Below are positions 6,164 to 23,121 of a stretch of 36,165 nt of DNA, piece after piece. The translations under genes were made by a program, and so were the position numbers. The stretch covers positions 1-36,165 of the forward strand of contig CACYWZ010000022.1 in the NCBI GenBank assembly GCA_902778325.1, read 5' to 3'. Below the pieces are notes generated by a model that was given only the letters and a program-made list of their open reading frames with translations, did not search any database and was not told the origin of the DNA. Each line of letters begins with the position of its first letter. Positions within the stretch are counted from its first letter, which is position 1. The stretch is from an uncultured Spirochaetaceae bacterium. Its GTDB lineage: Bacteria > Spirochaetota > Spirochaetia > Treponematales > Treponemataceae.

Positions 6164-6181
6164 AAAAATAAGGAGAAATGA

Positions 6182-6344
6182 TTTCCAAGATTGGAAATAC
6201 AATTTCCCAAAAAGGAAAAAAGATTTCCAAAGTTGGAGAAAGAATTTCCTAACTTGGAGGAAGAGTTTCCGAAGTCGGAAAAGAGATTTCCAAACTTGGA
6301 GAAATGATTTCCAAGTTTGGAGAACGAATTTCCTTGATATAAAA
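6182..6344 (+). repeat. Array 1: eight dyad units at exactly 21-bp spacing
   Basis: TTTCC starts at 6182, 6203, 6224, 6245, 6266, 6287, 6308 and 6329, always 21 bases apart. Most units are dyads such as TTTCCAA-GA-TTGGAAA (6182-6197). One unit, TTTCCGA-AG-TCGGAAA, differs on both arms so that symmetry is kept. The last unit has lost its right arm. The array fills most of the space between the DUF434 gene and the inverted-repeat element at 6349. Because 21 is a multiple of three, it leaves short frames open, but the repeat peptide looks like a by-product. Confidence 0.93.
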
Positions 6345-6348
6345 GACT

Positions 6349-6428
6349 GTCATGCTGAACTTGTTTCAGCATCTCGGTTGCTAAAGCAAAGCCGAATCAC
6401 AGATTCCGAAACAAGTTCGCCAATGTCA
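6349..6428. mobile_element. MITE/REP-like element, copy 1 (80 bp)
   Basis: The left end TGTCATGCTGAACTTGTTTC and the reverse complement of the right end TTCCGAAACAAGTTCGCCAA form imperfect terminal inverted repeats of about 27 bases. The left end is itself a hairpin, TGCTGAACTTGTTTCAGCA. The same element recurs at 9131-9210 and 19896-19967. It encodes no protein. It directly abuts repeat array 1. Confidence 0.85.
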
Positions 6429-6483
6429 GCCTTCATTTGTCGTGAGTGGATTTGACGGCATTTTTTCAAAAATGGAGACAAAA

Positions 6484-6987
6484 ATGAACTTCTGTTATGA
6501 ATGCGATAGTATGGACGCTCTTATTTTAATAGATGAGCAGTATCTTGATAAAATTGATGACGAACTTTTACGCGAGTTAGATATTTTTATCGATTATTAT
6601 GGAAAAAGTGAATTAGCATACGATTTTCCAAATGAAAATTGGAATGATGTCAGGAAAAGAGAAACAAAAGAACTTGTAGAATTTTGTAATTCAGGAAAAA
6701 TGGTGATTTTTTTGTATTATGAAAATGAGAAAAATGGTGAAATAACTATTTCTGATTCTCAAAAGTCCTCACGAACATTTATCAATATTGAGTCTGGAAA
6801 ACTGATTTTAGTTAATGCAAGTGAGTTGTTGCAATGCCTTTCCTATCCTGATTTGAAAATGGAGCGTATTTTGGAGCTTGATATAGAAAAAGGAGTTTAT
6901 TCAATAGAGTACGAAGAAATCAAATCATTAAAACTTGCACGAAGACTAGAATGTAATGAAGTTAATAATGCCATTGAATTGCTGTGA
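6484..6987 (+). CDS. Hypothetical protein, AT-rich, acidic
   Basis: The 167-residue product from ATG 6484 (MNFCYECDSMDALILIDEQY) is preceded by GGAG at a seven-base spacing. That makes this start better than 6442 or 6472, which would also run towards the MITE-like element. It is acidic, with alternating predicted helices and strands, no signal peptide and no membrane segment. I do not recognise the family. The gene is much richer in A+T than the LRR genes around it, like the next three genes. Together they look like a separately acquired cluster of small cytoplasmic proteins. An immunity-protein role would suit the setting but nothing in the sequence proves it. Confidence 0.72.
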   Translation: MNFCYECDSMDALILIDEQYLDKIDDELLRELDIFIDYYGKSELAYDFPNENWNDVRKRETKELVEFCNSGKMVIFLYYENEKNGEITISDSQKSSRTFINIESGKLILVNASELLQCLSYPDLKMERILELDIEKGVYSIEYEEIKSLKLARRLECNEVNNAIELL

Positions 6988-7034
6988 CTTTTCATGAAAA
7001 AACATTGCTGTAAGTAATTGGGGGAATAAAGAAA

Positions 7035-7706
7035 ATGTTTGAAAATCTATATGATGAATTAAAACAATCTATTAGAGATGGAAATTATGAAAAGGTAAAA
7101 GAAATTATTTCTATTGATAAAGACTTGCTTAATAAAGTTTCTGCCCTAGGCTCTAATTTAAGAATGGCAGCACGGTATAATCAATACGAAATATGCAAGT
7201 TACTTATTGAGAATGGAATTGATATTGATTTGGTTGGTGGAGTAAGTCATGATTCTGCCATTGTGGCTGCTACGTTTAGTGGAAATTTTGATATTGTAAG
7301 GCTCTTAATGCAAAATGGAGCAAAACTTGATGTTTCAAATACAAGAAACAACCCACTATTTGTTGCAATTTCAGGACGCAATGTAGAAATAGCAAAATAC
7401 TTGATAGACGCAGGCATTGATATTTATGCGACATATAAAATCGGAGAAATTGAGAACTGCGACGCTTGCGAGTGGGCAAAGAAATGGGGAACAAAAGATG
7501 TATATGATTATCTCATAGAAAAAGAAACTGCTGATGCCAAGCTGTTTGAAGTCACGGCAAGCACTTCATTTGAATCTCTTTGCAAAATCGTAAAAGGCAC
7601 AAAGGATTTGTATAATGCAGACGAGAAAATCATTTGCACAGCAAAAGGCAGAAGACAACTTATAGAAGCAAATCTCAAAGGCGTTTCGTTTTCAGTAGTG
7701 CAGTAA
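7035..7706 (+). CDS. Ankyrin-repeat protein
   Basis: The 223-residue product has about four ankyrin repeats between residues 35 and 165, e.g. NQYEICKLLIENGIDIDLVG, GNFDIVRLLMQNGAKLDVSN and RNVEIAKYLIDAGIDIYATY. A short C-terminal region of unknown type follows. There is no signal peptide. Ankyrin repeats bind other proteins; no catalytic domain is present. GGGGGA lies nine bases upstream of the ATG. It is AT-rich like its neighbours and is spaced 47 bases from the preceding gene. Small ankyrin proteins are common in toxin-immunity and phage-defence islands, but no toxin is visible here, so the role is open. Confidence 0.82.
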   Translation: MFENLYDELKQSIRDGNYEKVKEIISIDKDLLNKVSALGSNLRMAARYNQYEICKLLIENGIDIDLVGGVSHDSAIVAATFSGNFDIVRLLMQNGAKLDVSNTRNNPLFVAISGRNVEIAKYLIDAGIDIYATYKIGEIENCDACEWAKKWGTKDVYDYLIEKETADAKLFEVTASTSFESLCKIVKGTKDLYNADEKIICTAKGRRQLIEANLKGVSFSVVQ

Positions 7707-7778
7707 AATTGCGGATATGAAAGATGAGCGAGCGCGACAACGTGACGAAATCAGATTTTTATTGAGGGTGAAAACACT

Positions 7779-8285
7779 ATGAACGCAGATGATTTATACG
7801 AAGACAATATCTACGGGAACGGCAATCCGACATATTATGAGGATGAAGAATGCGAAATCCCTTATACGGGTCATGTTGAGGTCATTTATGACGGCAAACT
7901 TGAAGAGGAGTTTGATGTCGTGGACGGATTGCGGAACGGAATTCAAAAAGAATATGAGAATGGAATTCTTACTGAAATTGATGAAACAAGGGGAAATAGA
8001 ACTTCCGGATTTGGTGTGTCATATTATCCAAGCGGAGCGTTTAAGGCTATATCGATTACTTATGATGATAATTTGATTTCTGCTTATTTTTATAGCGAAG
8101 ACGGGCATAATGTAAAAAAATACGGAGTGCCAGAACGGTTCAAGGATATAGTAAAAACAGAGCTGGACGGTATTTTTGCACTTGTATCAATAGCAGACCT
8201 TGAGAAAATGAACGAAGAAATCCTTAAATACGGGCATCCGTTGAATCTTCCAAAAGGATTTGAATTTGTTCCACCAGAAAAGTAA
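7779..8285 (+). CDS. MORN/YwqK-like repeat protein, hypothetical
   Basis: The 168-residue acidic product contains stretches like those of MORN-type or YwqK-family proteins: YDGKLEEEFDVVDGLRNGIQKEYENGILTEI, here split by a linker, then FGVSYYPSGAFKAISITYDDN. Each is a beta-hairpin motif of the kind G-x-x-x-x-Y-x-x-G. The N-terminus is Asp/Glu-rich and there is no signal peptide. A GAGGGTG ribosome binding site stands nine bases before the ATG. YwqK-family members have been annotated as antitoxins, which would fit this cluster, but that is inference by analogy. The next gene starts 11 bases downstream. Confidence 0.68.
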   Translation: MNADDLYEDNIYGNGNPTYYEDEECEIPYTGHVEVIYDGKLEEEFDVVDGLRNGIQKEYENGILTEIDETRGNRTSGFGVSYYPSGAFKAISITYDDNLISAYFYSEDGHNVKKYGVPERFKDIVKTELDGIFALVSIADLEKMNEEILKYGHPLNLPKGFEFVPPEK

Positions 8286-8296
8286 AGTTTATTTCT

Positions 8297-8821
8297 ATGG
8301 GACGTTTGATTATGGTAGTGATAATTGACGCAGATTATAACGAAGAAACAAGAACTGGACACGTTGCGGGCATTGTGGCAAAAGATATTCTTGCAGAAAA
8401 AGAAGAGTATGTTTTGACGTCAATCGTAACAGAGATTGCAGACTATATTCCTGGGCAATTCTACAAAAGAGAGCTAAAAAGCGTAAAGTCTATTATTGAG
8501 CAAATGAAAAAAGAAGAGATTGATTTGATTGTAATAGACGGCTATGCCGACTCGGGAACAGAAGAACACGCTTTGGGCACTTTTGTTTTTGAAGAATACA
8601 ACATTCCTGTAATTGGAATTGGAAAAAACAAATATAACAGATGTGTTTTAGAAAATCTTGAAGTTTATCGAGGTAAAAAAAGCCAGAAACCATTGTATGT
8701 GACCAGCAAAGGAATGGATAATGAAAAAGCCAAAGAGCTTGTCAAACAAATGGCTGGAGAGAATAGGCTTCCTTACTTTGTGAAATTAGCAGACAACAGA
8801 GCAAGAGATTGGAATTTCTAG
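8297..8821 (+). CDS. Endonuclease V-like protein (divergent)
   Basis: Endonuclease V cleaves near deoxyinosine in DNA, or inosine in RNA. This 174-residue product is somewhat shorter than typical family members but keeps the core. VVIIDADY near residues 7-14 holds the first Asp. YIPGQFYKRE at 50-59 corresponds to the diagnostic Y-x-PG...RE segment with the catalytic Glu. LIVIDGY at 77-83 holds the second catalytic Asp. IPVIGIGKNKY at 103-113 matches the conserved Lys region. The glycine- and histidine-rich stretch after the DG motif is altered, so activity is not assured. The start is uncertain: ATG 8297 or ATG 8312, neither with a clear ribosome binding site. It is AT-rich and the last of four small genes. 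Confidence 0.68.
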   Translation: MGRLIMVVIIDADYNEETRTGHVAGIVAKDILAEKEEYVLTSIVTEIADYIPGQFYKRELKSVKSIIEQMKKEEIDLIVIDGYADSGTEEHALGTFVFEEYNIPVIGIGKNKYNRCVLENLEVYRGKKSQKPLYVTSKGMDNEKAKELVKQMAGENRLPYFVKLADNRARDWNF

Positions 8822-8875
8822 TTTCATATATAAAGTTTATAAAAACATATTCGGAAAACTTGTTCGCAATGGCAC

Positions 8876-9092
8876 TCCTTATTTTAAGGAAATGCAAATT
8901 TGCAGAAAGCCTGAAATCCTTGTTTTAAGGAAAAGCGCCTTAGCAGAAAATGGCATTCCTTATGTTGAGGATTTGTGATTTTGCAAAAAGTGGGCGTTCC
9001 TTATGATAAGGATTGCCCGCTTTTTAAAAAGCAGCGTTCCTTACGATAAGGATTACCAGATTTTTTAAAAGACAGAATCCTTACGATAAGGA
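8876..9092 (+). repeat. Array 2: six CCTTA/TAAGG dyads at about 40-bp spacing
   Basis: Six units of the type TCCTTATGATAAGGA centre near 8883, 8925, 8964, 9005, 9045 and 9085. Several intervals carry a second dyad, e.g. GCAAATTTGC near 8894-8903 and GCTTTTTAAAAAGC at 9019-9032. The last three units are nearly identical, the first three more diverged. Together with the 80-bp element at 9131 the array accounts for most of the 436-base space without a gene at 8822-9257. Confidence 0.88.
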
Positions 9093-9130
9093 AAGGCGAC
9101 TTTTATTGAGTTTGAGCCTTTTGAAAAGGG

Positions 9131-9210
9131 TGTCACCCTGAACTTGTTTCAGGGTCTGGTTGCTAAAGCGAAGCCGAAGAAAAGATTCTGAAACAAGTTC
9201 TCAAATGACA
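9131..9210. mobile_element. MITE/REP-like element, copy 2 (80 bp)
   Basis: It starts TGTCACCCTGAACTTGTTTC and ends GAAACAAGTTCTCAAATGACA, related to copy 1 along its whole length. In the left hairpin the arms changed together: CCCTGA...TCAGGG here, against TGCTGA...TCAGCA in copy 1. It lies between array 2 and the first long LRR gene. Confidence 0.85.
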
Positions 9211-9257
9211 CTCTGCTGTTTCGGAATGAGAATATAGATTATAAGGAGAAAGAACAA

Positions 9258-11195
9258 ATGGACAACACAGAAAATGATGTTTTGACAATCGAGAACGGCG
9301 TTGTGACCAAATGCAAAGAAGACGCTGTGAACGTGGTTATCCCTGAGGGCGTGACGGCAATCGGAAAAGAGGCGTTCGACAACTGCTCAAAACTTTTGTC
9401 CGTGAAAATCCCTGAGGGCGTGACTGAAATCGGATATAGGTCGTTCGCTTGGTGCACGAAACTTGAGGAGGCGAACATCCCTGAAAGCGTTGTGAAAATC
9501 GGCAACTGCGCATTCGAAAATTGCCAGTGCCTCAAGTCGATTGCCATTCCCGACGGCGTGAAGGAAATCGGAAACAACGCCTTTGACGGCTGCTGGTTGA
9601 TAAAATCCGTGACGCTAAGGGGCGTGGAGACAATCGGCTTCGATGCGTTCAAGGGGTGCTCGTCTTTGGAATCGCTCGTGATTGGCGGGAACGTCAAGTT
9701 CATCGACAGATACGCCTTTTCTCGCTGCAAGTCGCTCGTTGACGTGACGTATTGCGGAACAAAAGCGCAATGGGAAGCCGTGAAGGGAAGAATGCACGTC
9801 CTGAACAACGAAGGCGTGAAGAGCATAAAATGCTCTGACGGCGAATGGATAAAACCTGTCCTCTATATTGAGAACGGCTGTGTACTTGAGTGCCTCGACA
9901 AGAGTGCAAAGAGCGTTACAGTCCCAGAGGGCATTACAGAAATCAGCTTTGGTGCGTTCGAGAAATGCAAGGCTCTTGAGTCTGTGGTTATAAGCGAAGG
10001 CGTGACGAAATTAGATAGCTTAGCGTTTTGTGACTGCACAGCTCTCAAGTCCGTTGTCATTCCTTCGACTGTGACAAAAATCGAATCGTCCGCATTCGAT
10101 GGCTGTGAAGCAGTGGAAAAAGTCGTGTCGAATGCTCCGCTATTCCCTGTCGACGAGAAGAAGCGAAAGCTTTACGACGCGACATGGAAAAGAAAGAAGG
10201 CAATCCTCGTTCTTCAGGCGGCAAAGGAAGAGGCGAAGAAAGAGAAAATCGAGAAAGTGCAAAACGTTTCTGCAAGCGCTGTGCTTGAATCGATTTTGAG
10301 CGCGCAAAAAAATATCCGTCCGAAGTTGAGACGAGAGGGAAAGGAAGCATATCTTTGCCTAAACGCAGGAAAGGGCGGATTTGAGGTTGTCCTCGAGGAT
10401 TCAAAGGTGTCAAAGTGGATGCAGAGCCTTCCCGCCTTGCTCGACTTTGCTTCAACTTGCACTGACGAAGTGGCTTTGCGAAAGTATGCGCTCGACAATG
10501 GCTTTGAGGACACAAGCCGAAAGTTCTTGTATGTTCGATACGGCAAGGGCAAGGTGAGAGCGGACACGAAGCCGATTCATATCGTTATTAGCGACGAAGT
10601 GACGGAAATCCAAGAGAAAGGCTTTTATGAATGTGGGTCGCTAAAGTCCGTCGTTCTTCCGTCTATGGTCAAGAAAATCGGAGAAAAGGCTTTTGCTGAT
10701 TGCTTTAATCTCTCGTCGCTCTTCATTCCCGAAAGCGTGAAGGAAATCTGCAAGGACGCTTTTTCTAGCTGTAATTCGCTTTATGAAATAGATTTCGGCG
10801 GAACGATTGCACAATGGGAAGCTGTGGAGAAAAACGACGTCTGGAACAATAATTGCCACGTGAAAACGGTGAAATGCACTGACGGAGATTGGAAACGCCC
10901 TGTGCTTTTGATAGAAGATGGCGTTGTTGTGGGAAAACTCTACAACAAAATGACGAGCGTCACAATAGCCGACGGCGTTAGGGAAATCAGAGACAATGCG
11001 CTTTGTGGTTGCTCGTGTCTCAAATCCGTCTTTATTCCCGAAAGCGTGAAAAAAATCGGCATTAATGTCTTTTCTTCCTGCGCTTTGCTTTCAGAAATCA
11101 CGTTCGGCGGAACTTTGGCGCAATGGAACGCCGTGGAGAAAAGCGATGATTGGAACAAAGGCTCTTGTGCAAAAAACGTGAAATGCTCTGACTGA
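9258..11195 (+). CDS. BspA-type LRR protein, ends at a premature TGA
   Basis: The 645-residue product is built of LRR_5 units (AFxxCxxLxSVxIPEGVxxIG) in several blocks: about 20-165, 215-295, 430-500 and 575-615. Blocks are closed by caps of the type FGGTxAQWxAVExxDxWN plus VKCxDGxW. Between blocks lie a Lys/Glu-rich helix (EEAKKEKIEKVQ) and the family's middle domain (GGFEVVLEDSKVSKWMQSLPALLDFA). There is no signal peptide. The start has AAGGAGAAAGAACAA before it. The TGA at 11193-11195 stands where paralogous caps read KCSDG or KCTDG, so a Gly codon GGA has probably become TGA. The same frame continues as LRR to 11789. The intact protein would be about 843 residues. Confidence 0.88.
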   Translation: MDNTENDVLTIENGVVTKCKEDAVNVVIPEGVTAIGKEAFDNCSKLLSVKIPEGVTEIGYRSFAWCTKLEEANIPESVVKIGNCAFENCQCLKSIAIPDGVKEIGNNAFDGCWLIKSVTLRGVETIGFDAFKGCSSLESLVIGGNVKFIDRYAFSRCKSLVDVTYCGTKAQWEAVKGRMHVLNNEGVKSIKCSDGEWIKPVLYIENGCVLECLDKSAKSVTVPEGITEISFGAFEKCKALESVVISEGVTKLDSLAFCDCTALKSVVIPSTVTKIESSAFDGCEAVEKVVSNAPLFPVDEKKRKLYDATWKRKKAILVLQAAKEEAKKEKIEKVQNVSASAVLESILSAQKNIRPKLRREGKEAYLCLNAGKGGFEVVLEDSKVSKWMQSLPALLDFASTCTDEVALRKYALDNGFEDTSRKFLYVRYGKGKVRADTKPIHIVISDEVTEIQEKGFYECGSLKSVVLPSMVKKIGEKAFADCFNLSSLFIPESVKEICKDAFSSCNSLYEIDFGGTIAQWEAVEKNDVWNNNCHVKTVKCTDGDWKRPVLLIEDGVVVGKLYNKMTSVTIADGVREIRDNALCGCSCLKSVFIPESVKKIGINVFSSCALLSEITFGGTLAQWNAVEKSDDWNKGSCAKNVKCSD

Positions 11196-11789
11196 GATTC
11201 GACACCTTCTGTTCTTTTGATAGAAAATGGCGTTGTTGTGGCGAAACTACGCCAAGACTTAACGGACGTCATAATTCCAGAAGGAGTTACGGAAATCGCA
11301 AAGAAAGTGTTTGATTGGTGCGTCTCGCTTAAGTCTGTGGCTCTTGCGCAGAGTGTGAAGATAATTGATTACTGTGCATTCGAGGGGTGTAGCGGACTTG
11401 AATCGGTTGAGATTCCAGATGGTGTGACGGAAATCGGAAGAGAGGCGTTTCATTTCTGTGACTCTCTTAAGTCTGTGGTGATTCCTCAGAGTGTAACGTC
11501 TATTGGAAGAGAGTCGTTCTCTTGGTGCAAATCTCTTGAGTCTGCGGTGATTGGTGCAAACAAAATCGGCAATGTTGCCTTTGAAAGATGCCCAAAGCTC
11601 AAGTCTGTAACGTTTAGCGAAAGCGTGAAGAAAATAGGAGATGGTATATTTTCTGGATGTCCTGAGCTTTGTGAAATCACGTTTTTAGGCACGATGAAAG
11701 AGTGGAACGCCGTGAAGAAAGGCAAAGACTGGTGCAAAGATGTTCCCGCAAAGACCGTAAAATGCTCCGACGGAGACGTGGCGCTTTAG
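11196..11789 (+). pseudogene. 3' part of the split LRR gene
   Basis: This continues the frame of the gene at 9258 after the in-frame TGA. DSTPSVLLIENGVVVAKL matches the linker that follows KCTDGDW earlier in the same protein. At least five further LRR_5 units follow, then a final cap FLGTMKEWNAVKKGKDWC with TVKCSDGDVAL. A TTG at 11217 could start a 190-residue product but no ribosome binding site precedes it. The sequence is otherwise undamaged, so the stop is recent, wrong (sequencing), or read through. Confidence 0.78.
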
Positions 11790-11794
11790 TTTTT

Positions 11795-11943
11795 GCCTTT
11801 CGGGAAAATGCCCAAAGGCAACTTTGCTCCAGTTTGGCTCGTGGGTAAATGCCCAAAGCGTAATTTTGACCAAAGTGGGCTTTTGGGAAAATGCCCAAAG
11901 CATACTTTTTGATATTTTGCCTTTTTGGAGAAATGCCCGTGAG
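11795..11943 (+). repeat. Array 3: four GGG-AAATG-CCC dyads at about 41-bp spacing
   Basis: Units lie near 11795-11819, 11836-11860, 11877-11903 and 11918-11943. The first is a long hairpin, GCCTTT-CGGGAAAATGCCC-AAAGGC. Later ones keep GGG...AAATGCCC with weaker outer arms. It fills the gap between the split LRR gene and the next LRR gene, and its first hairpin may also terminate transcription. Confidence 0.85.
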
Positions 11944-11966
11944 GTTATTTTATAAGAGATGAGTTT

Positions 11967-13130
11967 ATGGAAAAAGAAAAAGATGCTCTCAAGATTGAAA
12001 ATGACGTGCTGACAATCGAAAATGGTGTTTTGAAAAGGTGCAAGAAAGACGCTGTGAACGTGGCTATCCCTGACGGCGTGACCGAAATCGGAGCGGGAGC
12101 GTTTCAAGATTGCTCGTCGCTCAAGTCGGTTGTGATACCTGAGAGCGTGACGAAAATCGGCGAGGGTGCGTTCAGTGGCTGCACGTCGCTTGAGTCCGTC
12201 GTGATACCAAAAGGTGTGAGCGAATTCGGAAAAGGTACGTTTGGTTGTTGCGAGTCGCTTGAATCTGTGGTTATTGGAGAGGGCGTGACGAAAATCGGCG
12301 AATTGGCGTTTTGCTATTGCTCATCGCTCAAGTCGTTGTCTCTTCCATCGACCGTCACGAAAATCGAGAAAATGGCTTTTGAAGGGTGCGACGCTGTTGA
12401 GGAGATTGTTTCCGCTTCTGCCTCGTATCCGTTCAGCGAAAAGACGCACAAACTATATCGAGCGACGAAAAAGTCGAGAAAGGCTATCCTTGTTTTGAAC
12501 GCGGCTAAGGAAAAGGCAAAGGAAGTGAAAGTCGCAGAAATGCAAAAAGAGGCTGCAACAGCGCTGCTCGAGTCGATTTTGGGCGAGTACAAAGAAGAGG
12601 AGGATTTTGTCAGAACATATAGAATCATATATAACTGGAAAATCATAAAGTATGCGATTATCTCTATAAACGTTGCAAATGGCGGAATGGATATCGTTCT
12701 TCCCGATTCCGCGGCGGCAAAGTGGAAGAAGACTCTTCCCGCGTTGCTCGCTTTTTCAAGAAGCTGCACAGATTCGGCGGAGGTGCGAAAATATGCGGTC
12801 GACAACGGTTTTAAGGACGCAAGCAGAAAGTTATTGTATTCAGAAAAAGGCGTCGTGTCTTTTTGTCACAAAAGCGCTGTGAACGTGGTTATCCCCAACC
12901 GCGTGAGGAAAATCGGAGTTCTCGGGAATTGCAATTCCCTCAAATCTATTGTGATACCGAGCAGTGTGACGGAATTTGAACAGTTTGCGTTCCAAGGCAG
13001 CAAGTCGCTTGAATATATCACGTTCGGCGGAACTGCATCACAGTGGAAAGCCGTGAAAAAAGGCGAGAACTGGAACAAAGATGTTCCCGCAAAGACCGTG
13101 AAATGCACTGACGGAGAAGTGGAAATATAA
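11967..13130 (+). CDS. BspA-type LRR protein (387 aa)
   Basis: The product starts with an N-terminal strand repeat (DVLTIENGVLKRCKKDAVNV) shared with the other paralogues. LRR_5 units follow to about residue 150, then a Lys/Glu-rich helix (AAKEKAKEVKVAEMQKEAA). The middle domain is at about 215-290 (GGMDIVLPDSAAAKWKKTLPALLAF). A short second LRR block and the cap FGGTASQWKAVKKGENWN with TVKCTDGEVEI close the protein. There is no signal peptide or membrane segment. Unlike its neighbours it lacks the AAGGAGAAAGAACAA leader; only a weak AGAGATGAG precedes the ATG. Its last ~45 bases closely match the end of the preceding gene, hinting at recombination between paralogues. Function is unknown; LRR_5 proteins usually bind proteins. 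Confidence 0.88.
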   Translation: MEKEKDALKIENDVLTIENGVLKRCKKDAVNVAIPDGVTEIGAGAFQDCSSLKSVVIPESVTKIGEGAFSGCTSLESVVIPKGVSEFGKGTFGCCESLESVVIGEGVTKIGELAFCYCSSLKSLSLPSTVTKIEKMAFEGCDAVEEIVSASASYPFSEKTHKLYRATKKSRKAILVLNAAKEKAKEVKVAEMQKEAATALLESILGEYKEEEDFVRTYRIIYNWKIIKYAIISINVANGGMDIVLPDSAAAKWKKTLPALLAFSRSCTDSAEVRKYAVDNGFKDASRKLLYSEKGVVSFCHKSAVNVVIPNRVRKIGVLGNCNSLKSIVIPSSVTEFEQFAFQGSKSLEYITFGGTASQWKAVKKGENWNKDVPAKTVKCTDGEVEI

Positions 13131-13151
13131 ATATATAAGGAGAAAGAACAA

Positions 13152-15065
13152 ATGGACAACACAGAAAATGATGTTTTGACAATCGAAGACGGCGTTTTGA
13201 CCAAATGCAAAGAAGGTTTGGTGAACTTGGTTCTCCCTGCAGGGATTAAGAGAATCGAACCCTTTACAATCAGGAATAGCTATAAGACGCTTGAATCCGT
13301 GGTGATTAACGAGTGGTTTCCGGGTTTGCAATTTTTTGGCTTCGAGGCGCTCAAGTCGGTGCAGTTCGGAAGAGGCGTGACGATGATTGGTTATACCGCA
13401 TTCAGCAAATGCACTGCTCTTGAGTCGATTAAAATCCCTGAGAGCGTTACGGAGATAGACTCAAGCGCGTTTGAAGACTGCACTGCCCTAAAGACGGTTG
13501 AGCTTCCTTCAAGCTTGTTGAAAATCGAGGATAAGGTGTTCAAGGGCTGCACTGCTCTTGAGTCGATTAAAATCCCCGAAGGCGTTACGGTGATAGGAGA
13601 GAACGCGTTTGAAGGCTGCACGGCTCTCAAATCGGTTGAAATCCCCTCGACCGTGACAAAAATAGAATCCTATGCGTTTGCTGGCTGCACTGCCCTTGAA
13701 AGCATCGTTATCCCCGACAGCGTGGAGAGAATTTGCTATCAGGGGTTTTCTGGCTGCAAGGCTCTCAAGTCGATTGTGATTGGAAGCGGAGTGGAAGATT
13801 TGGGGCAGTGGGCGTTCGATTATTGCACGTCGCTCAGCCAAATCGAGTTCCGCGGAACGGTGGCACAATGGGATAATATGGACGGGCTTCATGATCTTCT
13901 TTGCGTTGCACCTGTGACGAGCGTGAAATGCTCGGACGGCGAATGGAAAAAAGGCACTTTGATGGTGAAAGGCGGAACGCTCATCGCGTGCGTAGACAAA
14001 AGCGCAACGAGCGTTACAGTTCCCGACACCGTGAAGGAAATACGTCGGTATGCGTTCGATAAGTGCGACTGTCTTGAGTCCGTGGTGATAAGCGAGGGCG
14101 TGGAGGAAATCGACGGCCATGCGTTCAATGATTGCAAGTCGCTCAAATACATCGAAATCCCTTCGACAATGAGGATTATTTACAAAGGTGCATTTTCTGG
14201 TTGCGGCTCTGTGGAGAAAATCGTGTCGCGCTCAACGCTGTACCCGTTCAACGAGAAAACGGGAAAACTCTACGACGCAAGAAAAACAAAGAAAGAGCCA
14301 ATCCTTGAAGTGCAGGCGGCAAAGGAAGAAGCAAAGCAGCTGAAAATCAAGAAGATTCAGAAAGTCAGCGCAATGTCCTTGTTCTCTGAGGCAATCAAAA
14401 AAAAGGGCATTGAGGATTACGCTGTGGAATCGTTCATTCCAACAAAAACAGTGAATATCATTTGGGTGAGAGTCAACGAGAACAACGTGATTTACAAAGT
14501 GAAAGCCAATGCTTTTGACTGGACCAGCGACGTTCCGAAAATCGTGGACGCACTTTGTGACAAAGAAAAAAGCTCCCGTGAGATTTTCGATTCTCTTATG
14601 AAAGCAAAGCTCCAGCCTCTTGAAGTTCCGAAAAAGCTTCCTGACGCTCTGGAACTGCATCCGAGCAAAGACGGAAAAATCCGATTCTTCAGCCAAAGTC
14701 TTCTGAGGAAAATCTCTTTTCTCTACACCACAAAAGAGCTGGAAATTGTTGGCGTGACGGAAATCGACAAGAATGCTCTTTGCCTTCGAGGTTCATATTA
14801 CGAGCTTGAAACTCTAATCATTGCCGACGGCGTGGAAAAAATCGGAGAGTCGGCATTCGGTTATTCCAAGAATCTCGTTTCCGCTTCCATTCCCGAAAGC
14901 GTTACGGAAATCGGACAAACTGCCTTCCGTGGCTGCACTGCTCTTTCTGAAATCAATTTCCGAGGCACGCTCTCGCAATGGAACGCCATTGAGAAAGGCG
15001 AAATGTGGAACAAGAACGTTCCAGCAAAAGTCGTGCATTGTTCAGACGGCGACGCTGAAATATAA
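13152..15065 (+). CDS. BspA-type LRR protein (637 aa)
   Basis: Two large LRR_5 blocks (about residues 20-235 and 265-345) are each closed by a cap of the type FRGTVAQWDN plus VKCSDGEW. A charged helix follows (KEEAKQLKIKKIQKV). Then comes a divergent version of the middle domain (IEDYAVESF, NVIYKVKANAFDW, VPKIVDALCDKEKSSREIF), a third LRR block and the cap FRGTLSQWNAIEKGEMWN. The last ~260 residues resemble the next gene from start to finish, suggesting one arose from the other. The first 53 bases, leader plus start, are identical to those of the gene at 9258. There is no signal peptide, so it is probably cytoplasmic. Confidence 0.9.
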   Translation: MDNTENDVLTIEDGVLTKCKEGLVNLVLPAGIKRIEPFTIRNSYKTLESVVINEWFPGLQFFGFEALKSVQFGRGVTMIGYTAFSKCTALESIKIPESVTEIDSSAFEDCTALKTVELPSSLLKIEDKVFKGCTALESIKIPEGVTVIGENAFEGCTALKSVEIPSTVTKIESYAFAGCTALESIVIPDSVERICYQGFSGCKALKSIVIGSGVEDLGQWAFDYCTSLSQIEFRGTVAQWDNMDGLHDLLCVAPVTSVKCSDGEWKKGTLMVKGGTLIACVDKSATSVTVPDTVKEIRRYAFDKCDCLESVVISEGVEEIDGHAFNDCKSLKYIEIPSTMRIIYKGAFSGCGSVEKIVSRSTLYPFNEKTGKLYDARKTKKEPILEVQAAKEEAKQLKIKKIQKVSAMSLFSEAIKKKGIEDYAVESFIPTKTVNIIWVRVNENNVIYKVKANAFDWTSDVPKIVDALCDKEKSSREIFDSLMKAKLQPLEVPKKLPDALELHPSKDGKIRFFSQSLLRKISFLYTTKELEIVGVTEIDKNALCLRGSYYELETLIIADGVEKIGESAFGYSKNLVSASIPESVTEIGQTAFRGCTALSEINFRGTLSQWNAIEKGEMWNKNVPAKVVHCSDGDAEI

Positions 15066-15086
15066 AATTACAAGGAGAAAGAACAA

Positions 15087-16124
15087 ATGAACGACACAGA
15101 AGACATCGAAAAAGCAAAGCTTGAGAAAATCAAGCAGGTTCAGCAGGTCACTGCAACGTCCTTGTTCTCACAGGCAATCAAGGAAAAGGGCATTGAGGAT
15201 TTCTCCGTGGAAAGCGTCAATGCCACAAAAGCGGACACAATCCTTTTGGTGAACGTCAACGGAAACAACGTGCTTTTGAAAGCGAGTGCGAACGTTCAAA
15301 AATGGATTGGCGAAGTGCCAAAAATCGTGGACGCGCTTTCTGACGAATCAAAGAACTCGCTTGAGATTTTCGACGCTCTTATGAGCACGAAGCTCCCGCC
15401 TTTTGAAATCCCGATTCGGCTTGCAAAGGACATAACGCTCAAGCCCAACAAAAACGGCAAGGCACGCTTCTTTACGCAAGGAATTATGAGACCTATCAAT
15501 TTCAAAACCGTCAAAGAGCTGGAGTTTGTGGGAGTGACGGAGTTTGAAGAAAAGGTATTTTGGGGTTTCGGGTACTATTATCAGCTCGAAACGCTAATCG
15601 TTGCCGACGGCGTTGAAAAAATCGGCAAAGCTGCGTTCTCTTGTTTCAAGCATCTCGTTTCAGCGTCTCTTCCTGACAGCGTGTCAGAAATCGGCGATGA
15701 CATATTCGCTGGTTGTGATTTGCTTAGTTCCGTGTCGCTTCCGAAAAACCTGACGAAAATCAACGGAATGTTCCATAAATGCAAATCCCTGAAACACATT
15801 GACATTCCAGATACCGTTACCCAAATCGATAACTGGGCGTTCTGCAACTGTGATTCCCTTGAGTCTGTAAAGCTCCCCGAAGGCTTGTTGGAAGTCGGAG
15901 TTCACTCGTTCGAGCACTGCATTTCGCTCAAATCCATAAGGATTCCGAAAAACGTGGTGAAAATATGGCCTCGTGCATTTGAGGGCTGCACAGCCCTTAC
16001 TTCAATCGAGTTCGACGGAACTGTGGAACAATGGAACAAAATGCCAAAGGGATTGTATTGGAACGAAAAAGTGCCCGCCAAAGTCGTGAAATGCACGGAC
16101 GGCGAAGTGTCGCTCGAAGAATAA
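15087..16124 (+). CDS. BspA-type LRR protein (345 aa)
   Basis: It starts with the charged helix (EKAKLEKIKQVQQV) and the divergent middle domain (IEDFSVESV, NVLLKASANVQKWIGEVPKIVDALSD). Five or six LRR_5 units and a cap (FDGTVEQWNKMPKGLYWN, KVVKCTDGEVSLEE) follow. It is thus equivalent to the C-terminal part of the preceding protein, made as a separate gene. The start is fixed by AAGGAGAAAGAACAA, the same leader as in the paralogues. There is no signal peptide. It is the last plus-strand gene; it faces rnz, with repeat array 5 between them. Confidence 0.9.
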   Translation: MNDTEDIEKAKLEKIKQVQQVTATSLFSQAIKEKGIEDFSVESVNATKADTILLVNVNGNNVLLKASANVQKWIGEVPKIVDALSDESKNSLEIFDALMSTKLPPFEIPIRLAKDITLKPNKNGKARFFTQGIMRPINFKTVKELEFVGVTEFEEKVFWGFGYYYQLETLIVADGVEKIGKAAFSCFKHLVSASLPDSVSEIGDDIFAGCDLLSSVSLPKNLTKINGMFHKCKSLKHIDIPDTVTQIDNWAFCNCDSLESVKLPEGLLEVGVHSFEHCISLKSIRIPKNVVKIWPRAFEGCTALTSIEFDGTVEQWNKMPKGLYWNEKVPAKVVKCTDGEVSLEE

Positions 16125-16130
16125 AATACA

Positions 16131-16236
16131 ACCCGCATGCAGGTGAGGTGTCCTTCCGCATGCGGGTGGGGTGTCTACCTGCATGCAGTTGAGGTGTCCA
16201 ACCGTATGCAGTGAGGGTGTCCACCTGTATACAGGT
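16131..16236 (+). repeat. Array 5: five palindromes at exactly 23-bp spacing between convergent genes
   Basis: Fourteen-base dyads start at 16131, 16154, 16177, 16200 and 16223, separated by a nine-base linker close to GAGGTGTCC. Cores read CCGCATGCGG (second), CTGCATGCAG (third) and CTGTATACAG (fifth): paired changes that keep perfect symmetry. The last unit, ACCTGTATACAGGT, is a perfect 14-base palindrome. The array fills the space between the LRR gene and the end of rnz. Confidence 0.93.
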
Positions 16237-16252
16237 GGAGATGCACAAAAAA

Positions 16253-17179: not shown

Positions 17180-17251
17180 AACAAGAGCAAACTATACCGT
17201 ATTTCCTCGATTTTGGGAATTAGTGATTATTGTTGATGAGAAAATCCCTTT

Positions 17252-18610: not shown

Positions 18611-18624
18611 TTTATACCCTCTTT

Positions 18625-19833
18625 TCAAGCGCCGAGGATTTTCCCGACGAAAATGCCAAAATATGTGCCGATTGCGTATCCGAGAGTGCCGACGAGGAGA
18701 ACAGGCCCTGTCAAATCCTGCCAGCCCTTCGAAATCGCCATCGCTGCGGCTGTTGTTGGGCCTCCGATGTTCGCGTTTGAAGCAAGAATGATGTCCTCAA
18801 GCGAATATCCGAGAAGAAGCCCTGCGACAAAGCAGAAAATCATATTGCCGAAAACGATAATCGCGCAAAAAGCGAACAAAAGAGGAGCGTTTTTCAGGAT
18901 TTGACCGATTGACGCGGGAACACCGACAGCAAAAAAGAAAAGATAAATCATAAAAGTGCCGAGCTCCTGCGTTCCGGCGTCGGGCTTCACCTTGTCGCTC
19001 AAAAACGTTGCCAGAATCATAGAAATCGATGTCATTATAAGATAGCGGCTCGAAAAAAGAGCGTTTATTATATCAAGCGCGATGTTACCCGTCGGAATCA
19101 AAGCGCCAAAGACGGCGGAAAGCTCTGTTGAAAGCCAAACGATAAGCGCCGATGAGGAGAGGGCAATGGCGATGTCTTTTAGCGAAATCTTTTTTGGCGC
19201 CCAGAACGCCGCCGCCTGCGTTTTCGCACCTCCATTTCCCTCGCGCTCTGCCTTGTCGATGTGCGGGTGAGGAAAGTGACGCTTCACAAAGGGCGAGGAG
19301 GACAAAAAGAGCAGAACGAAAAAGTAAAGCGCCATCAGAACATTGTCTGCGACAGTCGCCGCCGCCGTAAGTTGCGCGCTCGTCTTGTAGTAGGACGAAA
19401 TCGCCGCCAGATTGACACTTCCGCCAATGTATGAGCCTGTCATCATTGCGGAAATCTCTTTTAGAGAAGGGATTTTGTCCTTGAAGACGTTGTACGCCAC
19501 GATTGCAAAAATCGCGCTTCCTGCCGAGCCTGATAAAAACAGCGCCAAAAGACGGCCTGATTCTTTCCAGATTTTTTTGATGTTGCACTTGAAAAGAAGA
19601 AGCGGAATCGCCAGCGGAATGGCGTAATCCCAAATCACAGTGTCGAAAAACGGAGCGCTCATCGGGATTATGTGAAGATTTGTCAAAATAATCGCGCCTG
19701 CCATGCAAATCACTGTCCCTGTGATTTTTGACGCCCATTTCCATTTTTGTTCTGCCACTATCGCGAACGACACCCATGTGAACGAAATCGCAATCAGTGC
19801 TATTGTGTTATCGCTTTTTATTATTGAGTCCAT
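18625..19833 (-). CDS. DUF819 family integral membrane protein
   Basis: The 402-residue product has about ten to twelve hydrophobic segments, in the N-terminal half (ALIAISFTWVSFAIVAE, VICMAGAIILTNL, LLALFLSGSAGSAIFAIVAY) and again after a polar loop near residues 205-225. Conserved Gly-rich motifs of DUF819 are present, e.g. MMTGSYIGGSVNLAAIS and ASNANIGGPTTAAAMA, the latter suggesting a two-fold repeated transporter-like fold. Substrate is unknown; YjcL-type members are uncharacterised. ATG 19833 is preferred over TTG 19839. It lies directly upstream of folC with no terminator between them. Confidence 0.9.
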   Translation of the reverse strand: MDSIIKSDNTIALIAISFTWVSFAIVAEQKWKWASKITGTVICMAGAIILTNLHIIPMSAPFFDTVIWDYAIPLAIPLLLFKCNIKKIWKESGRLLALFLSGSAGSAIFAIVAYNVFKDKIPSLKEISAMMTGSYIGGSVNLAAISSYYKTSAQLTAAATVADNVLMALYFFVLLFLSSSPFVKRHFPHPHIDKAEREGNGGAKTQAAAFWAPKKISLKDIAIALSSSALIVWLSTELSAVFGALIPTGNIALDIINALFSSRYLIMTSISMILATFLSDKVKPDAGTQELGTFMIYLFFFAVGVPASIGQILKNAPLLFAFCAIIVFGNMIFCFVAGLLLGYSLEDIILASNANIGGPTTAAAMAISKGWQDLTGPVLLVGTLGYAIGTYFGIFVGKILGA

Positions 19834-19840
19834 TCTCAAG

Positions 19841-19870
19841 AGTATAGCCTTTCGTGGCTTTCATAATCAA
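19841..19870 (-). promoter_or_regulatory. Possible promoter of the DUF819-folC unit
   Basis: On the minus strand TTGATT is followed after 18 bases by TATACT, close to sigma-70 consensus. TATACT ends only about nine bases before ATG 19833, so a transcript from it would be leaderless or nearly so. Prediction by eye; coordinates are approximate. Confidence 0.35.
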
Positions 19871-19895
19871 TACAGCCAGAAAAATATTTTTTGTG

Positions 19896-19967
19896 TGTCA
19901 TGCTGAATTCGTTTCAGCATCTGCCTTACTTGATTGAATAGATTCCGAAACAAGTTCGCCAATGACA
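19896..19967. mobile_element. MITE/REP-like element, copy 3 (72 bp)
   Basis: It has the same ends as copies 1 and 2 (TGTCATGCTGAA... and ...GAAACAAGTTCGCCAATGACA), with a shorter and different middle. It lies in the same orientation on the plus strand as the other two copies, next to repeat array 6. Confidence 0.85.
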
Positions 19968-19988
19968 ATTTTTACTATTCCGCATCTT

Positions 19989-20073
19989 AAAATACGTTTG
20001 GGGCGACTCACTGTTGAATTTGGCAAAACGTACGTACGGTGGGCATGACTCAACGCTGAGCTGGCAAAACGTA
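19989..20073 (+). repeat. Array 6: about two and a half units at 41-42-bp spacing
   Basis: GACTCA recurs at 20005 and 20047 and GGCAAAACGTA at 20022 and 20063. Between the GGCAAAACG copies lie dyads such as ACGTACGT and CTCA-ACGC-TGAG. The left edge AAAATACGTTT is the reverse complement of the right edge AAACGTATTT, so the whole array is roughly an inverted repeat. It ends exactly at the stop of the radical SAM gene. Confidence 0.75.
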
Positions 20074-20074
20074 T

Positions 20075-22864
20075 TTAGTGAATCTCTGGGTGAGATTTGA
20101 AAAACGCCTTTCGCTCTTTTTTCATGTCGTCCCGCTCTTTTATGAGCGCGGCATTGACTGCGGCAATCTTTTTGTAGAGCGTGTAATACGGAACAGGCGC
20201 GGAAGAAAGCTTGATGTCCTCTTCTTTTTCGCCAGTCGGAACGAAGGCTCGTCGCTCTTCGCTTGCGTTCTGCAAAATCCACGCTCTCTCATCAGAAAGC
20301 GTCCAGCCTGTGACCTCACCTTTTGAAAGCGTCTTTAGCTTCGTGATTTGGCAAAGGCGGAAAATCTTGTCGCCGCCTGCTTCTTCGATTGCGTCGCGGA
20401 AAGGGCGGTCTGATTTGAACGGAAGCGTGAAAATCTTTTTGCGCTCGCTCTCGCTGTCCTCAAAAGCAAAGCCTTCTGTGTCCGAAAACTTCTTGAACGC
20501 ATCGCTTTTCTTGAACTCTTCAAAATCGAACGATGGCGAAAACTCGTAAGCGTAGACGTTCCCCCAAAGAGATGAGGCAAGAGATTCGCGTTTTCTCTGG
20601 TTTGTGACAGGGAAAATGTAGGCGCTTTCGACTTTGAGGTTTTGCGGCAAAACAGCGTTCATTTTTTCGACGAAATCACTTTCGCTCATCGGCTCAAGAA
20701 GCACGCACGAGGCAACTTCGTCGAGCGAGCGCACGCCAAGCGAGAGCGTCGAGGCAAACTCAAGGCGCGGAATCGGGTTGAAGCCCATTGTGTAAACGAC
20801 GGGGAGGGAAGCGCAAAGGAAAGCGCGCTGCATAATCTCGACTTGCATCAAATGCGACACGTACTCACCGCCGTTTATCTTCGTGAACGTGAAAAGACAG
20901 CGGTAGAGAATCGGGATATTGTCGCCCTGCTTTAGCGCCACTTTGTCTGGAACGCTCAACGCTTCCAGCTCCTTTGCGTCGTCTTTTGCAAAGTGGACGC
21001 TCTTTGTCGCCGAGCAAACGCCGCAGCGCTCTGTGCACGGATTTCCGCAACGGGACGTCAGAACGGCTTTGAGCGAGCGATTCCATTCGCGGACAAAGAA
21101 CGATTTTGGCTGACCGAGGTTCACGCTGTCCCACGGCAATTTTTCGTCGAGGAGTCTTTCACGAAGGATTTCGCTTCGGACGTCCCAGTCCGCGCTTTCA
21201 AAGACAGCGTTCCAAATCGCCATGTTCTCGCGAAGATGGTCTTCCCAAGCGTCAAGGCGCGCTCCTTTTTTGTATGCTTCAAGGATGAGAGCGCCTGCTC
21301 TCTCGTCGCATCTTGACAAAAGCCCTTCAAGATACGCGACGTTTTCGTTGTGAGTGCCGACTTTGAACTTTCCGCGCGGAAGGTGTGAGCGAATATAATC
21401 CATTTTCGCCTTTGATTCCTCTGGCGTAATCTGCCGAATCCACTGATACGCGGTGTGTGGCTTTGGAATAAAAGTGCCGACATTGACGTTGCACTGTATT
21501 CCAGTCTTTTCCTGCAAGTCCAAAAGAAAATCCACGATTGCTTTTTCCTCGCTTCCCTCTGCACCCGCCTCGACTTGAGTCGGGAGGGGCATGTCGCACC
21601 ACGGGGAAGAGGCGTTTTTTGCGCCTGCGAGGTTGTTTCCGAGCGGAAGCCCAATCATAAAGTAGAACTTGGCTTTGTTCCAGCCTTTTTTCTTTGCTTC
21701 GAGGATAATGTCAATCAAATGCTGGGCGTAAACTTCCTTGTTCACCGAAAGCTGCCACATTTCGTCAGGTGTTTCCACCGCGAACGTAAGCCCGCCCTTT
21801 CGCACTTCGGAAAGTTTTTCCAAAAGCGGCAGCGACATGCTGTTGACCTTGAGAGAGGGAAGCTGGAAGCTGACGTTCTCGCCGTTGTATTTTTTGTTGA
21901 GCGCGTCCAACAGATTGCCGATTCCCTCGTAATCCGCTGACGAAAGCGACATCAGGCTGATTTGCCTGTAACCCGCTTTTCTGACAAGGTTGTCGACCTC
22001 GCTGAAAATGAACTTGGCTTTCTTCATTCGCTGCGGGCGATAGTAAATGCCGGCATGACAAAAGCGGCAGCCGTTCGGGCAACCGCGCATAATCTCCACA
22101 GTTCCGTGGTCCTGCACCATCTTCACGCTCGCAAGCGGAAAGTATGCGCTCACAGCCTCTTTTTGCCCGAAATCCGCCTGAAGCGCTCTCGTGGCAACGA
22201 CGTGCGCTGTCTTTTCCATGCTCATGTCGCGCGTCCAAACGTGCGGCGAGCGCGCAAAATGCGAAAGAAGCTCGCTTCTGGATTTCCCGCTTTTTTTCAT
22301 CAACGAAAGTTCTTCAACAAGCGAGAACAAATCGTCTTCCGCCTCTCCGATAAACACCGCGTCGAAAAAATCGCTGAAAGGCGCAGGATTTGTAACGCCG
22401 CAACCGCCAGCGAACACAATCGGGTCGCTCTCGCTTCTGTCGCAGGCGAGAAGTGGAACGCCGCCTGCTTCAAGCATCGCAAGAACGCTCGTGATGCCAA
22501 GCTCATAGCCGATTGAAAAGCCAATCATGTCAACGTCTTTGAGCGCCATTCCCGTTTCAAGCGTGTAAAGCGGAATGTTTTTCGCCTTCAAAAGCGCCTC
22601 AAAGTCCGTGTCGGGTGCAAAAACGCGCTCACAGCGAATGTTTTCGCTCCTGTTCAGCCCGTTGTAAATGATTTTGACCGCCTGATTGCACATCGCGATT
22701 TCGTAAAGGTCTGGAAAAGCGATGGCAAAGTTGTATTTGCTCTCCTCGCCGTCGTTTTCGTGTGCTTTTATGATTGCGCCAACCTCGCCTCCGAGGTATC
22801 GCGACGGGTTTTGCACCGCGCAAAGCTCAGTGCCTATCTCTTCAAGTGGATTTATCAGTTTCAT
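20075..22864 (-). CDS. B12-binding-type radical SAM protein with DUF2344 tail
   Basis: The 929-residue product joins two parts that are often separate genes. Residues 1-~600 match the TIGR03960 type: a B12-binding-like N-terminus, then a radical SAM core with MRGCPNGCRFCHAG (Cys262, Cys266, Cys269 for the 4Fe-4S cluster). A Cys-rich link follows (SRCGNPCTERCGVCSATK). From about 655 the TIGR03936/DUF2344 domain begins (LYRCLFTFTKINGGEYVSH, YTMGFNPIPRLEFASTLSLG). The substrate is unknown; an RNA-modification role has been suggested for the family, which I treat as inference. AAGGAGAAG lies six bases before the ATG. The unusual leader upstream holds repeat array 4. It follows rodA on the same strand. 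Confidence 0.93.
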   Translation of the reverse strand: MKLINPLEEIGTELCAVQNPSRYLGGEVGAIIKAHENDGEESKYNFAIAFPDLYEIAMCNQAVKIIYNGLNRSENIRCERVFAPDTDFEALLKAKNIPLYTLETGMALKDVDMIGFSIGYELGITSVLAMLEAGGVPLLACDRSESDPIVFAGGCGVTNPAPFSDFFDAVFIGEAEDDLFSLVEELSLMKKSGKSRSELLSHFARSPHVWTRDMSMEKTAHVVATRALQADFGQKEAVSAYFPLASVKMVQDHGTVEIMRGCPNGCRFCHAGIYYRPQRMKKAKFIFSEVDNLVRKAGYRQISLMSLSSADYEGIGNLLDALNKKYNGENVSFQLPSLKVNSMSLPLLEKLSEVRKGGLTFAVETPDEMWQLSVNKEVYAQHLIDIILEAKKKGWNKAKFYFMIGLPLGNNLAGAKNASSPWCDMPLPTQVEAGAEGSEEKAIVDFLLDLQEKTGIQCNVNVGTFIPKPHTAYQWIRQITPEESKAKMDYIRSHLPRGKFKVGTHNENVAYLEGLLSRCDERAGALILEAYKKGARLDAWEDHLRENMAIWNAVFESADWDVRSEILRERLLDEKLPWDSVNLGQPKSFFVREWNRSLKAVLTSRCGNPCTERCGVCSATKSVHFAKDDAKELEALSVPDKVALKQGDNIPILYRCLFTFTKINGGEYVSHLMQVEIMQRAFLCASLPVVYTMGFNPIPRLEFASTLSLGVRSLDEVASCVLLEPMSESDFVEKMNAVLPQNLKVESAYIFPVTNQRKRESLASSLWGNVYAYEFSPSFDFEEFKKSDAFKKFSDTEGFAFEDSESERKKIFTLPFKSDRPFRDAIEEAGGDKIFRLCQITKLKTLSKGEVTGWTLSDERAWILQNASEERRAFVPTGEKEEDIKLSSAPVPYYTLYKKIAAVNAALIKERDDMKKERKAFFKSHPEIH

Positions 22865-22887
22865 TGTCTTCTCCTTGTGATTTTTTT

Positions 22888-23097
22888 TCTGGAAAGCTCG
22901 CCAGTGAGTCGGAATGGCGTTTCCACAACTGTGGAAAGGTCGCCAGTGACTCGGAATGGCGTTTCCACAAACATGGAAAGGCCGTCAGTGACTCGGAATG
23001 GCGTTTCCACAACTGTGGAAAGGCCGCCAGTGAGTCGGAATGGCGTTTCCACAAACATGGAAAGGTCGCCAGTGACTCGGAATGACCTTTCCATAAA
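22888..23097 (-). repeat. Array 4: 42-bp repeats carrying alternating dyads
   Basis: GGCGTTTCC recurs at 22916, 22958, 23000 and 23042, with a degraded fifth start at 23084, exactly 42 bases apart. Dyads alternate between TTTCCACA-AC-TGTGGAAA (22920, 23004) and TTTCCA-CAAACA-TGGAAA (22962, 23046), giving an 84-base higher order. The intervening part, GCCAGTGACTCGGAATGGC, has GCCA/TGGC ends. The array occupies the rodA to radical SAM gap and would be transcribed as a series of hairpins in the mRNA leader. Confidence 0.94.
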
Positions 23098-23121
23098 AAT
23101 TATGTGCCGTTTTTTGAAGAA

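Follow-up and report, generated by a model that had tools for sequence, protein, structure and literature searches.

The 36,165-nt stretch of DNA analysed here (the window) raises the question of why intergenic arrays that are unrelated in sequence should be tandem series of short dyads built to one plan. Six such arrays had been claimed in the first-pass annotation. A scan of the full window for tandem periods of 15-60 bp with a score of at least 18, run with no prior positions, returned exactly five segments (A1, A2, A3, A4 and A6; coordinates are given without strand), and five dinucleotide shuffles of the window yielded no segment with such a score. A1 (6167..6333, period 21/42 bp, score 57) adjoins the stop codon (6163) of a DUF434/DUF5616 gene just 3' of it, A2 (8876..9092, period 40-41 bp) starts 55 bp past the stop of an endonuclease V-like gene, A3 (11791..11938, period 41-42 bp) lies directly 3' of the stop of a BspA-type LRR gene, A4 (16131..16237, period 23/46 bp) sits between convergent genes encoding an LRR protein and a metallo-beta-lactamase-fold protein, and A6 (22890..23100, period 42 bp) reached a score of 127. 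The remaining array, A5 (19990..20076; placed by the first-pass annotation at 19989-20073), consists of only two units of ~42 bp and falls under the threshold of the period scan; its edges are marked by a perfect terminal inverted repeat of 10 bp (AAATACGTTT / AAACGTATTT), which overlaps the neighbouring stop codon by 2 bp. All six arrays lie outside called genes, within ~55 bp of a stop codon, and have homologous arrays elsewhere in their own genome: eight arrays of the A1 family lie in the sampled part of the genome, the A2 and A4 families comprise five and three arrays, the A3 family is the largest in the sample (16 arrays), A5 has kin on three other contigs and A6 has 43 matches in the genome, itself counted.

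Regular dyad spacing had been ascribed to all six arrays. Judged by perfect stems of at least 5 bp (14, 9, 4, 3, 1 and 7 stems in A1 to A6, respectively), it is plain in A1, A2, A4 and A6 and weak in A3 and A5. Many dyad centres in A1 are 10.5 bp apart, dyads in A4 are spaced by 23 and 46 bp, and those in A6 by 19.5 and 22.5 bp in turn. The alternation of two dyad types is no feature in its own right, because a sequence of period p that is mirror-symmetric about a point c has a further centre of symmetry at c + p/2, and the alternation thus follows already from periodicity and mirror symmetry.

The same architecture recurs far beyond the window. A genome sample of 836 kb (808 kb unmasked, about a quarter of the genome) contained 127 intergenic arrays, counted after removal of ten segments inside called genes, that fall into 36 sequence families when families are delimited by a BLAST E cut-off of 1e-4, on which their number depends. 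The period is 21-24 or 40-43 bp in 125 of the 127 arrays, with 41-42 bp the most frequent and 12 arrays at 23 bp, and 33 of the 36 families have a modal period of 21-24 or 41-42 bp. When the allowed periods were widened to 12-120 bp, 122 of 124 arrays had a period of 21-24 or 40-42 bp or, doubled, of 81-85 bp. Two segments with periods of 30 and 45 bp are intergenic under one gene model and coding under another, and therefore probably lie in a gene. For comparison, one shuffle of the sample gave one segment, so that the possibility that such arrays are no more frequent than expected by chance falls away. The arrays account for 2.9% of the sampled bases and for roughly a seventh of the intergenic DNA in the sample. 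The first-pass observation of one architecture with many unrelated sequences is confirmed, and the pattern is more extensive than described.

Within the arrays, the number of dyads is three times that of column-permuted controls, and the prevailing distance between them is 20-21 or 41-42 bp. Conservation in the dyad arms is 0.886 versus 0.814 in the rest of the unit, a difference that is seen in 65 of 71 arrays and that amounts to -0.005 in the permuted control. One or two consensus dyads are present in 55 of the 72 long-unit arrays, the other 17 having no consensus dyad at the threshold used. Mean identity between units is 0.776, 0.745 and 0.705 at lags 1 to 3 (73 arrays), 0.718 at lag 4 (39 arrays) and 0.690 at lag 5 (21 arrays); units resemble their neighbours more than they do distant units, showing that arrays grow by local duplication. 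Isolated single units also exist, for example at C1:96974 (TGAGTTTGC...GCAAACTCA).

Arrays have also been copied to new sites, contrary to the earlier suggestion that the pattern reflects a shared process or need rather than a spreading repeat: there is spread within families, and some whole arrays were moved as blocks, as for C2:193 and C2:12201, which are collinear unit by unit with a diagonal identity of 0.88-0.95. In several pairs of arrays at different loci homology stops at the array edge, give or take a few bases, and other pairs have ~35-240 bp of flank in common as well, on one or both sides. Several pairs are thus dispersed copies with non-homologous flanks, as is characteristic of MITEs. 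Beyond the periodic part, copies of one family carry inverted ends (AAAAATTGTATACGC / GCGTATACAATTTTT), recognized by eye, which are exact in two copies and changed at the left end in a third. Mirror-symmetric ends, as predicted for a TIR-bounded element, are weakly supported: 35 of the 127 arrays are strongly symmetric as a whole, and 20 of these 35 (57%) have their centre of symmetry close to the midpoint, versus 42% in a random-trim control. The few flanks inspected by eye showed no target-site duplication, and when flanks were used to look for unoccupied copies of a site, the search returned ambiguous overlaps and same-family matches with no decisive case.

Arrays are over-represented between convergent genes: 34 of the 70 such intergenic regions contain them, versus 80 of 340 others (p = 6e-5), these classes being approximate since genes were called by a simple ORF and hexamer model. 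They also lie close to stops; between co-directional genes, 50 of 63 arrays are closer to the stop. A6 occupies the junction of a rodA/ftsW-type gene and a radical-SAM gene, where the gap measures 257 bp; in 28 related loci with the same gene order, whose gene starts were extrapolated from tblastn matches, it is approximately -4 to 93 bp, with a median of 12 bp.

The sampled congeners have a far lower density of arrays. About 2.0 Mb of congener DNA, in which some loci are from the same species (L161 and L230 share one array), contained one array at 40-43 bp, and 21-23 bp arrays of still other sequences occur sporadically. A6 was matched in one of 147 genomes of the genus, its own, with at most the five best candidates per genome scored, so that absences are incomplete. 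For one array of the largest family, six of 201 genomes gave a match among the best three candidates per genome (absences again being incomplete): its own and five weak ones. The two weak matches that were inspected both lie in protein-coding genes and are therefore treated as chance. Spread on phages or plasmids gained no support, as viral contigs contained no exact match to the two unit patterns searched and a plasmid collection no match to A6, the one family searched there.

We give about an even chance to the reading that the arrays are non-autonomous, MITE-like intergenic tandem repeats that multiplied in this species. The monomer would be a short inverted-repeat unit of 41-42 bp, or of 21-24 bp in other families, and head-to-tail joining would let the arms of adjacent units form regularly spaced palindromes. 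We infer that some protein may recognise the double-stranded DNA of the dyad arms by its sequence and drive or tolerate the spread, and that the common unit lengths could represent the smallest unit that places one dyad in roughly every two turns of the helix; a host function would not be required. That two unit lengths are common to dozens of unrelated families is not predicted by a plain MITE model.

Known repeat families, checked in Rfam and the literature, include relatives in kind, and the earlier statement that no named element resembles these arrays was too strong. The nearest named case is the BrickBuilt minisatellite-MITE of Porphyromonas gingivalis, which consists of intergenic 23-nt imperfect tandem repeats at 19 loci, with predicted long stem-loops, a repeat number that varies by locus and no BLASTn match outside the species (PMC4596501). 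Intergenic tandem repeats of 23 nt also occur here, but BrickBuilt is one family that makes up 0.44% of its genome (PMC4596501), unlike the 36 families of mostly 41-42 bp units found here. The repeats of BrickBuilt come with leader and tail segments (PMC4596501). BOX of Streptococcus pneumoniae is a composite intergenic repeat with a tandem inner module (boxB) that is commoner between convergent genes and that its authors regard as a non-autonomous mobile element (PMC3049150). A tandem intergenic module and an excess between convergent genes are found in both, whereas BOX is one family with boxA and boxC ends and the arrays here form many unrelated families. REP, BIME and REPIN elements are short extragenic palindromes, which in BIMEs are clustered at regular spacing (PMC12306157). 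By contrast, the arrays here have no palindrome in common and the genome has no Y1 (RAYT) transposase. Unit spacing in BIMEs is much longer than in these arrays. As in CRISPR, some families have a conserved palindromic repeat alternating with stretches of constant length and more variable sequence, but these stretches are, by eye, mostly alike within an array, and Cas1 is missing. REP/RAYT, CRISPR and integron attC arrays were rejected as the corresponding enzymes are absent or below cut-off: the genome, which is 94% complete, has no match to RAYT (PF01797; 12 of 59 genomes searched have one) or Cas1 (PF01867), and its five weak matches to the integron integrase (TIGR02249) all remain below the cut-off, and the 14 control genomes likewise have none above it. 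No mobilising enzyme was thus found among the three types searched.

The foremost alternative to MITE-like spread, which we regard as possible though doubtful, is a sequence-independent process with a built-in ruler that makes ~41.5 or 21-24 bp tandem dyads from any short inverted repeat, for instance by foldback synthesis or hairpin-guided strand switching, such that families arise anew with the architecture alone in common. The sharing of two unit lengths by 36 families without similarity at the BLAST cut-off argues for such a process, as do the drop in unit identity over lags 1-3, which local amplification would give, and the still other sequences of the 21-23 bp arrays in congeners. On the other hand, family members are scattered over many loci, some of them having been moved as blocks, and arrays therefore also spread by copying; foldback correction should leave compensated changes in the arms, of which there is no excess (28 observed versus 27.5 expected). 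Hairpin elongation is an existing idea, and no relevant report was found among 8 of 45 literature matches; nor was a report of a multi-family pattern of unrelated sequences with two unit lengths met in the open-licence literature searched. Bacterial repeat families are usually described consensus by consensus, and consensus-based finders would miss families that, as here, share geometry and not sequence. If the ruler exists, it would point to an unknown DNA transaction acting on dyads by their spacing, and we consider it conceivable, if somewhat improbable, that a genome with dozens of unrelated minisatellite families houses a structure-guided, length-measuring repeat factory instead of independent MITEs. 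This array-rich genome and the sampled congeners, which are nearly without the 41-42 bp class, provide a natural experiment on the multiplication of small repeats.

Selection of the arrays as DNA platforms that offer multiple sites to a dimeric protein (for example a topoisomerase or a nucleoid protein) and absorb supercoils behind genes, a role that has been proposed for E. coli BIMEs, is unlikely. The greater conservation of the dyad arms, the prevalent dyad recurrence every 20-21 or 41-42 bp and the enrichment between convergent genes are all consistent with this explanation. Dozens of unrelated palindromes would, however, need many proteins, sampled congeners largely lack such arrays, and phasing on one DNA face, as suggested in the first-pass annotation, does not cover arrays with 23-24 bp spacing, which are out of phase (2.2-2.3 turns at 10.5 bp per turn).

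Finally, it is very improbable that the arrays act as RNA hairpin chains, an option raised earlier, and serve in 3' untranslated regions to stabilise transcripts, attenuate them or terminate them. RNA-level selection found no support in mismatch types (51 G-U versus 42 A-C in the sense orientation, near balance), in compensatory changes or in the folding of sense over antisense strands. The sense strand folds better in 42 of 63 arrays (41 of 63 with a shorter cut), but shuffles give an equal advantage (63%, p = 0.54), indicating no bias beyond composition, and no intrinsic terminator (a GC stem followed by a T run) lies around A6 (22800-23200). What speaks for hairpin chains is the proximity of all six window arrays to stop codons and the capacity of arrays to fold: in a comparison of each array with one column-permuted control, 115 of the 127 folded better per base. 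As MITE-like repeats, arrays in transcribed junctions such as that of rodA and the radical-SAM gene could likewise fold into one long hairpin, and folding is strong in A6 and A1, with z scores of -6.9 and -6.6, respectively.

An unbiased scan of the whole window for tandem periods of 15-60 bp returned five segments in total (none reached the threshold in five shuffles), exactly five of the six phased dyad arrays proposed in the first-pass annotation: A1 (6167-6333), A2 (8876-9092), A3 (11791-11938), A4 (16131-16237) and A6 (22890-23100, at the junction of a rodA/ftsW-type and a radical-SAM gene). The sixth, A5 (19990-20076), consists of two units bounded by a terminal inverted repeat that is perfect over 10 bp; its kin occur on three other contigs. 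Judging from counts of perfect stems of at least 5 bp (14 in A1, 9 in A2, 4 in A3, 3 in A4, 1 in A5 and 7 in A6), the dyads ascribed to all six are plain in A1, A2, A4 and A6 but weak in A3 and A5. The reported alternation of two dyad types is present, but it is no separate feature, as it follows mathematically from a period and one mirror centre. A run of BspA-type leucine-rich repeat genes (9258-16124; two proteins tested), with DNA repeats of 69 and 138 bp, contains A3 and ends at A4. Another interspersed element, whose ends are inverted (GAACTTGTTTC ... GAAACAAGTTC type), adjoins three of the six arrays (about 6348-6426, 9129-9210 and 19897-19970); its 87 motif matches in the genome sample described next are 57 intergenic and 30 coding, and 28 of the 57 lie within 150 bp of an array, a zone making up 15.6% of the non-array intergenic bases.

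All six window arrays have homologous arrays elsewhere in their own genome. We scanned the window and 800 kb more of this genome (836 kb, 808 kb unmasked) and obtained 137 periodic segments, of which 127 lie outside called genes, compared with one segment in one shuffle of the same DNA. The 127 fall into a short class with periods of 21 (11 segments), 22 (1), 23 (12) and 24 bp (5) and a long class of 40 (2), 41 (55), 42 (37) and 43 bp (2), leaving one segment at 30 and one at 45 bp. A rescan admitting periods of 12-120 bp with a raised threshold placed 122 of 124 intergenic segments at 21-24, 40-42 or a doubled 81-85 bp. Of the unmasked sample, arrays occupy 2.9% overall and 13.7% of the intergenic bases, and the 125 arrays of the two classes extrapolate to about 519 in the whole genome. 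BLAST grouping yielded 36 families, of which 16 consist of one array each, and the modal period is 21-24 or 41-42 bp in 33. The passages on BrickBuilt in PMC4596501 describe a single family of 23-nt intergenic tandem repeats with leader and tail, at 19 loci and 0.44% of the genome, whereas our sample holds 36 families. The inner module of BOX is tandem according to the relevant part of PMC3049150, and a recent palindromic-repeat survey reports REPs without clear clustering or periodicity along the chromosome (PMC12306157, in its account of their distribution). None of these three papers, in the pertinent sections, describes a single genome in which many unrelated families share unit lengths.

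With the same scan and threshold, four congeners (320 kb) gave 9 intergenic arrays, 80 named loci around rodA (1.32 Mb, all Treponema or other spirochaete records) gave 11, and 18 congeners with high PBP2 similarity (0.36 Mb) gave 5. At a lower threshold, 116 pooled loci (2.0 Mb) held 33 arrays, 14 of them at 21-23 bp, one at 42 and one at 44 bp. On the basis of these counts, this genome is nearly alone among those sampled in having the 41-42 bp class, and arrays of 21-23 bp are sparsely scattered over the genus. The A6 family matched one of 147 genomes, its own, and an array of the largest family matched six of 201 (three candidates scored per genome), namely its own and five weakly; both weak matches examined lie in coding sequence. 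E. coli K-12 (50 kb) gave one segment, at threshold, with period 18. In another Treponema, a 22-bp array (L161:14049-14192, the same array as L230:13143-13286) has arms in both orientations that, by eye, could form nested hairpins.

Dyad density is 2.42 per 100 bp versus 0.74 after permutation of unit columns, which leaves period and composition unchanged. In 85 of the 127 arrays it exceeds all ten of the array's own permuted controls (about 11.5 arrays expected by chance), and distances between dyads are most frequent at 20-21 and 41-42 bp. Strong dyads are not a feature of every array: of 72 with units of at least 40 bp and at least three units, 17 lack a consensus dyad with arms of at least 5 bp, 38 contain a single one and the remaining 17 contain two. 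Arm positions are more conserved than the rest of the unit (88.6% versus 81.4%; same direction in 65 of 71 arrays), a difference not seen with permuted columns. RNA folding of the arrays is strong. In arrays between co-directional genes, read in sense orientation, stem mismatches comprise 51 G-U and 42 A-C; pairing-restoring double changes number 28 versus 27.5 expected, and in 41 of 63 arrays folding is slightly better for the sense strand, a bias that shuffles also show (63%). From these three results, the arms seem to be maintained by sequence rather than pairing, with no strand preferred.

We favour the view that the arrays are MITE-like repeats, in which an inverted-repeat unit would polymerise locally and the resulting arrays would occasionally move as a block. 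Between some loci the limit of homology coincides, to a few bases, with the array edge, whichever strand the copy is on; other pairs share about 35-240 bp further. The arrays at C2:193 and C2:12201 correspond unit for unit in the same order and represent a block copy; A6 and its copy on contig C6 show no such collinearity, suggesting that they amplified after they had separated. Unit identity fell from 0.776 through 0.745 to 0.705 over lags 1, 2 and 3 (73 arrays); at lags 4 and 5, with fewer arrays, it was 0.718 and 0.690. Array-like sequence also occurs outside arrays, at 56 places between genes and 7 in coding DNA; 12 of the 56 have no array nearby, and these include single units with inverted ends. 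A symmetry test of array ends for MITE ends gave a weak signal, and no target duplication was seen in the few flanks inspected by eye. The search for a mobilising enzyme covered RAYT, Cas1 and integron integrase: neither of the first two was found in this genome, and no integron integrase scored over the cut-off. The geometry common to the families is a puzzle for the MITE-like reading and leaves room for a ruler-based process. At each of two loci, G000:C1:131014-131770 and G000:C16:10375-11298, a pair of A6-family arrays encloses a stretch of other DNA about 160-210 bp long; these loci are alike over 711 bp (79%), possibly as a larger composite element.

At the A6 site, rodA and the radical-SAM gene are 257 bp apart, compared with about -4 to 93 bp (median 12) in the 28 of 80 named loci with this gene order; the pair was absent from the fetched DNA of the other 52. 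Since no promoter-like or terminator-like consensus was seen around A6, transcription of the downstream gene probably passes through the array. Among intergenic regions of at least 50 bp, 34 of 70 convergent, 61 of 259 co-directional and 19 of 81 divergent ones bear arrays (convergent excess, p = 6e-5), and 50 of 63 arrays between co-directional genes lie nearer the stop. A similar convergent excess of pneumococcal repeats is interpreted, in the passage of PMC3049150 concerned, as tolerated insertion behind genes. An mttB-like reading frame at 3-1250 of the window has an in-frame TAG (135-137) beside a PYLIS_3 match and, with no other stop codon, continues into the middle and C-terminal domains of FliG. 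Either MttB and FliG are fused in one protein here, or two sequences were joined in assembly close to the end of the contig.
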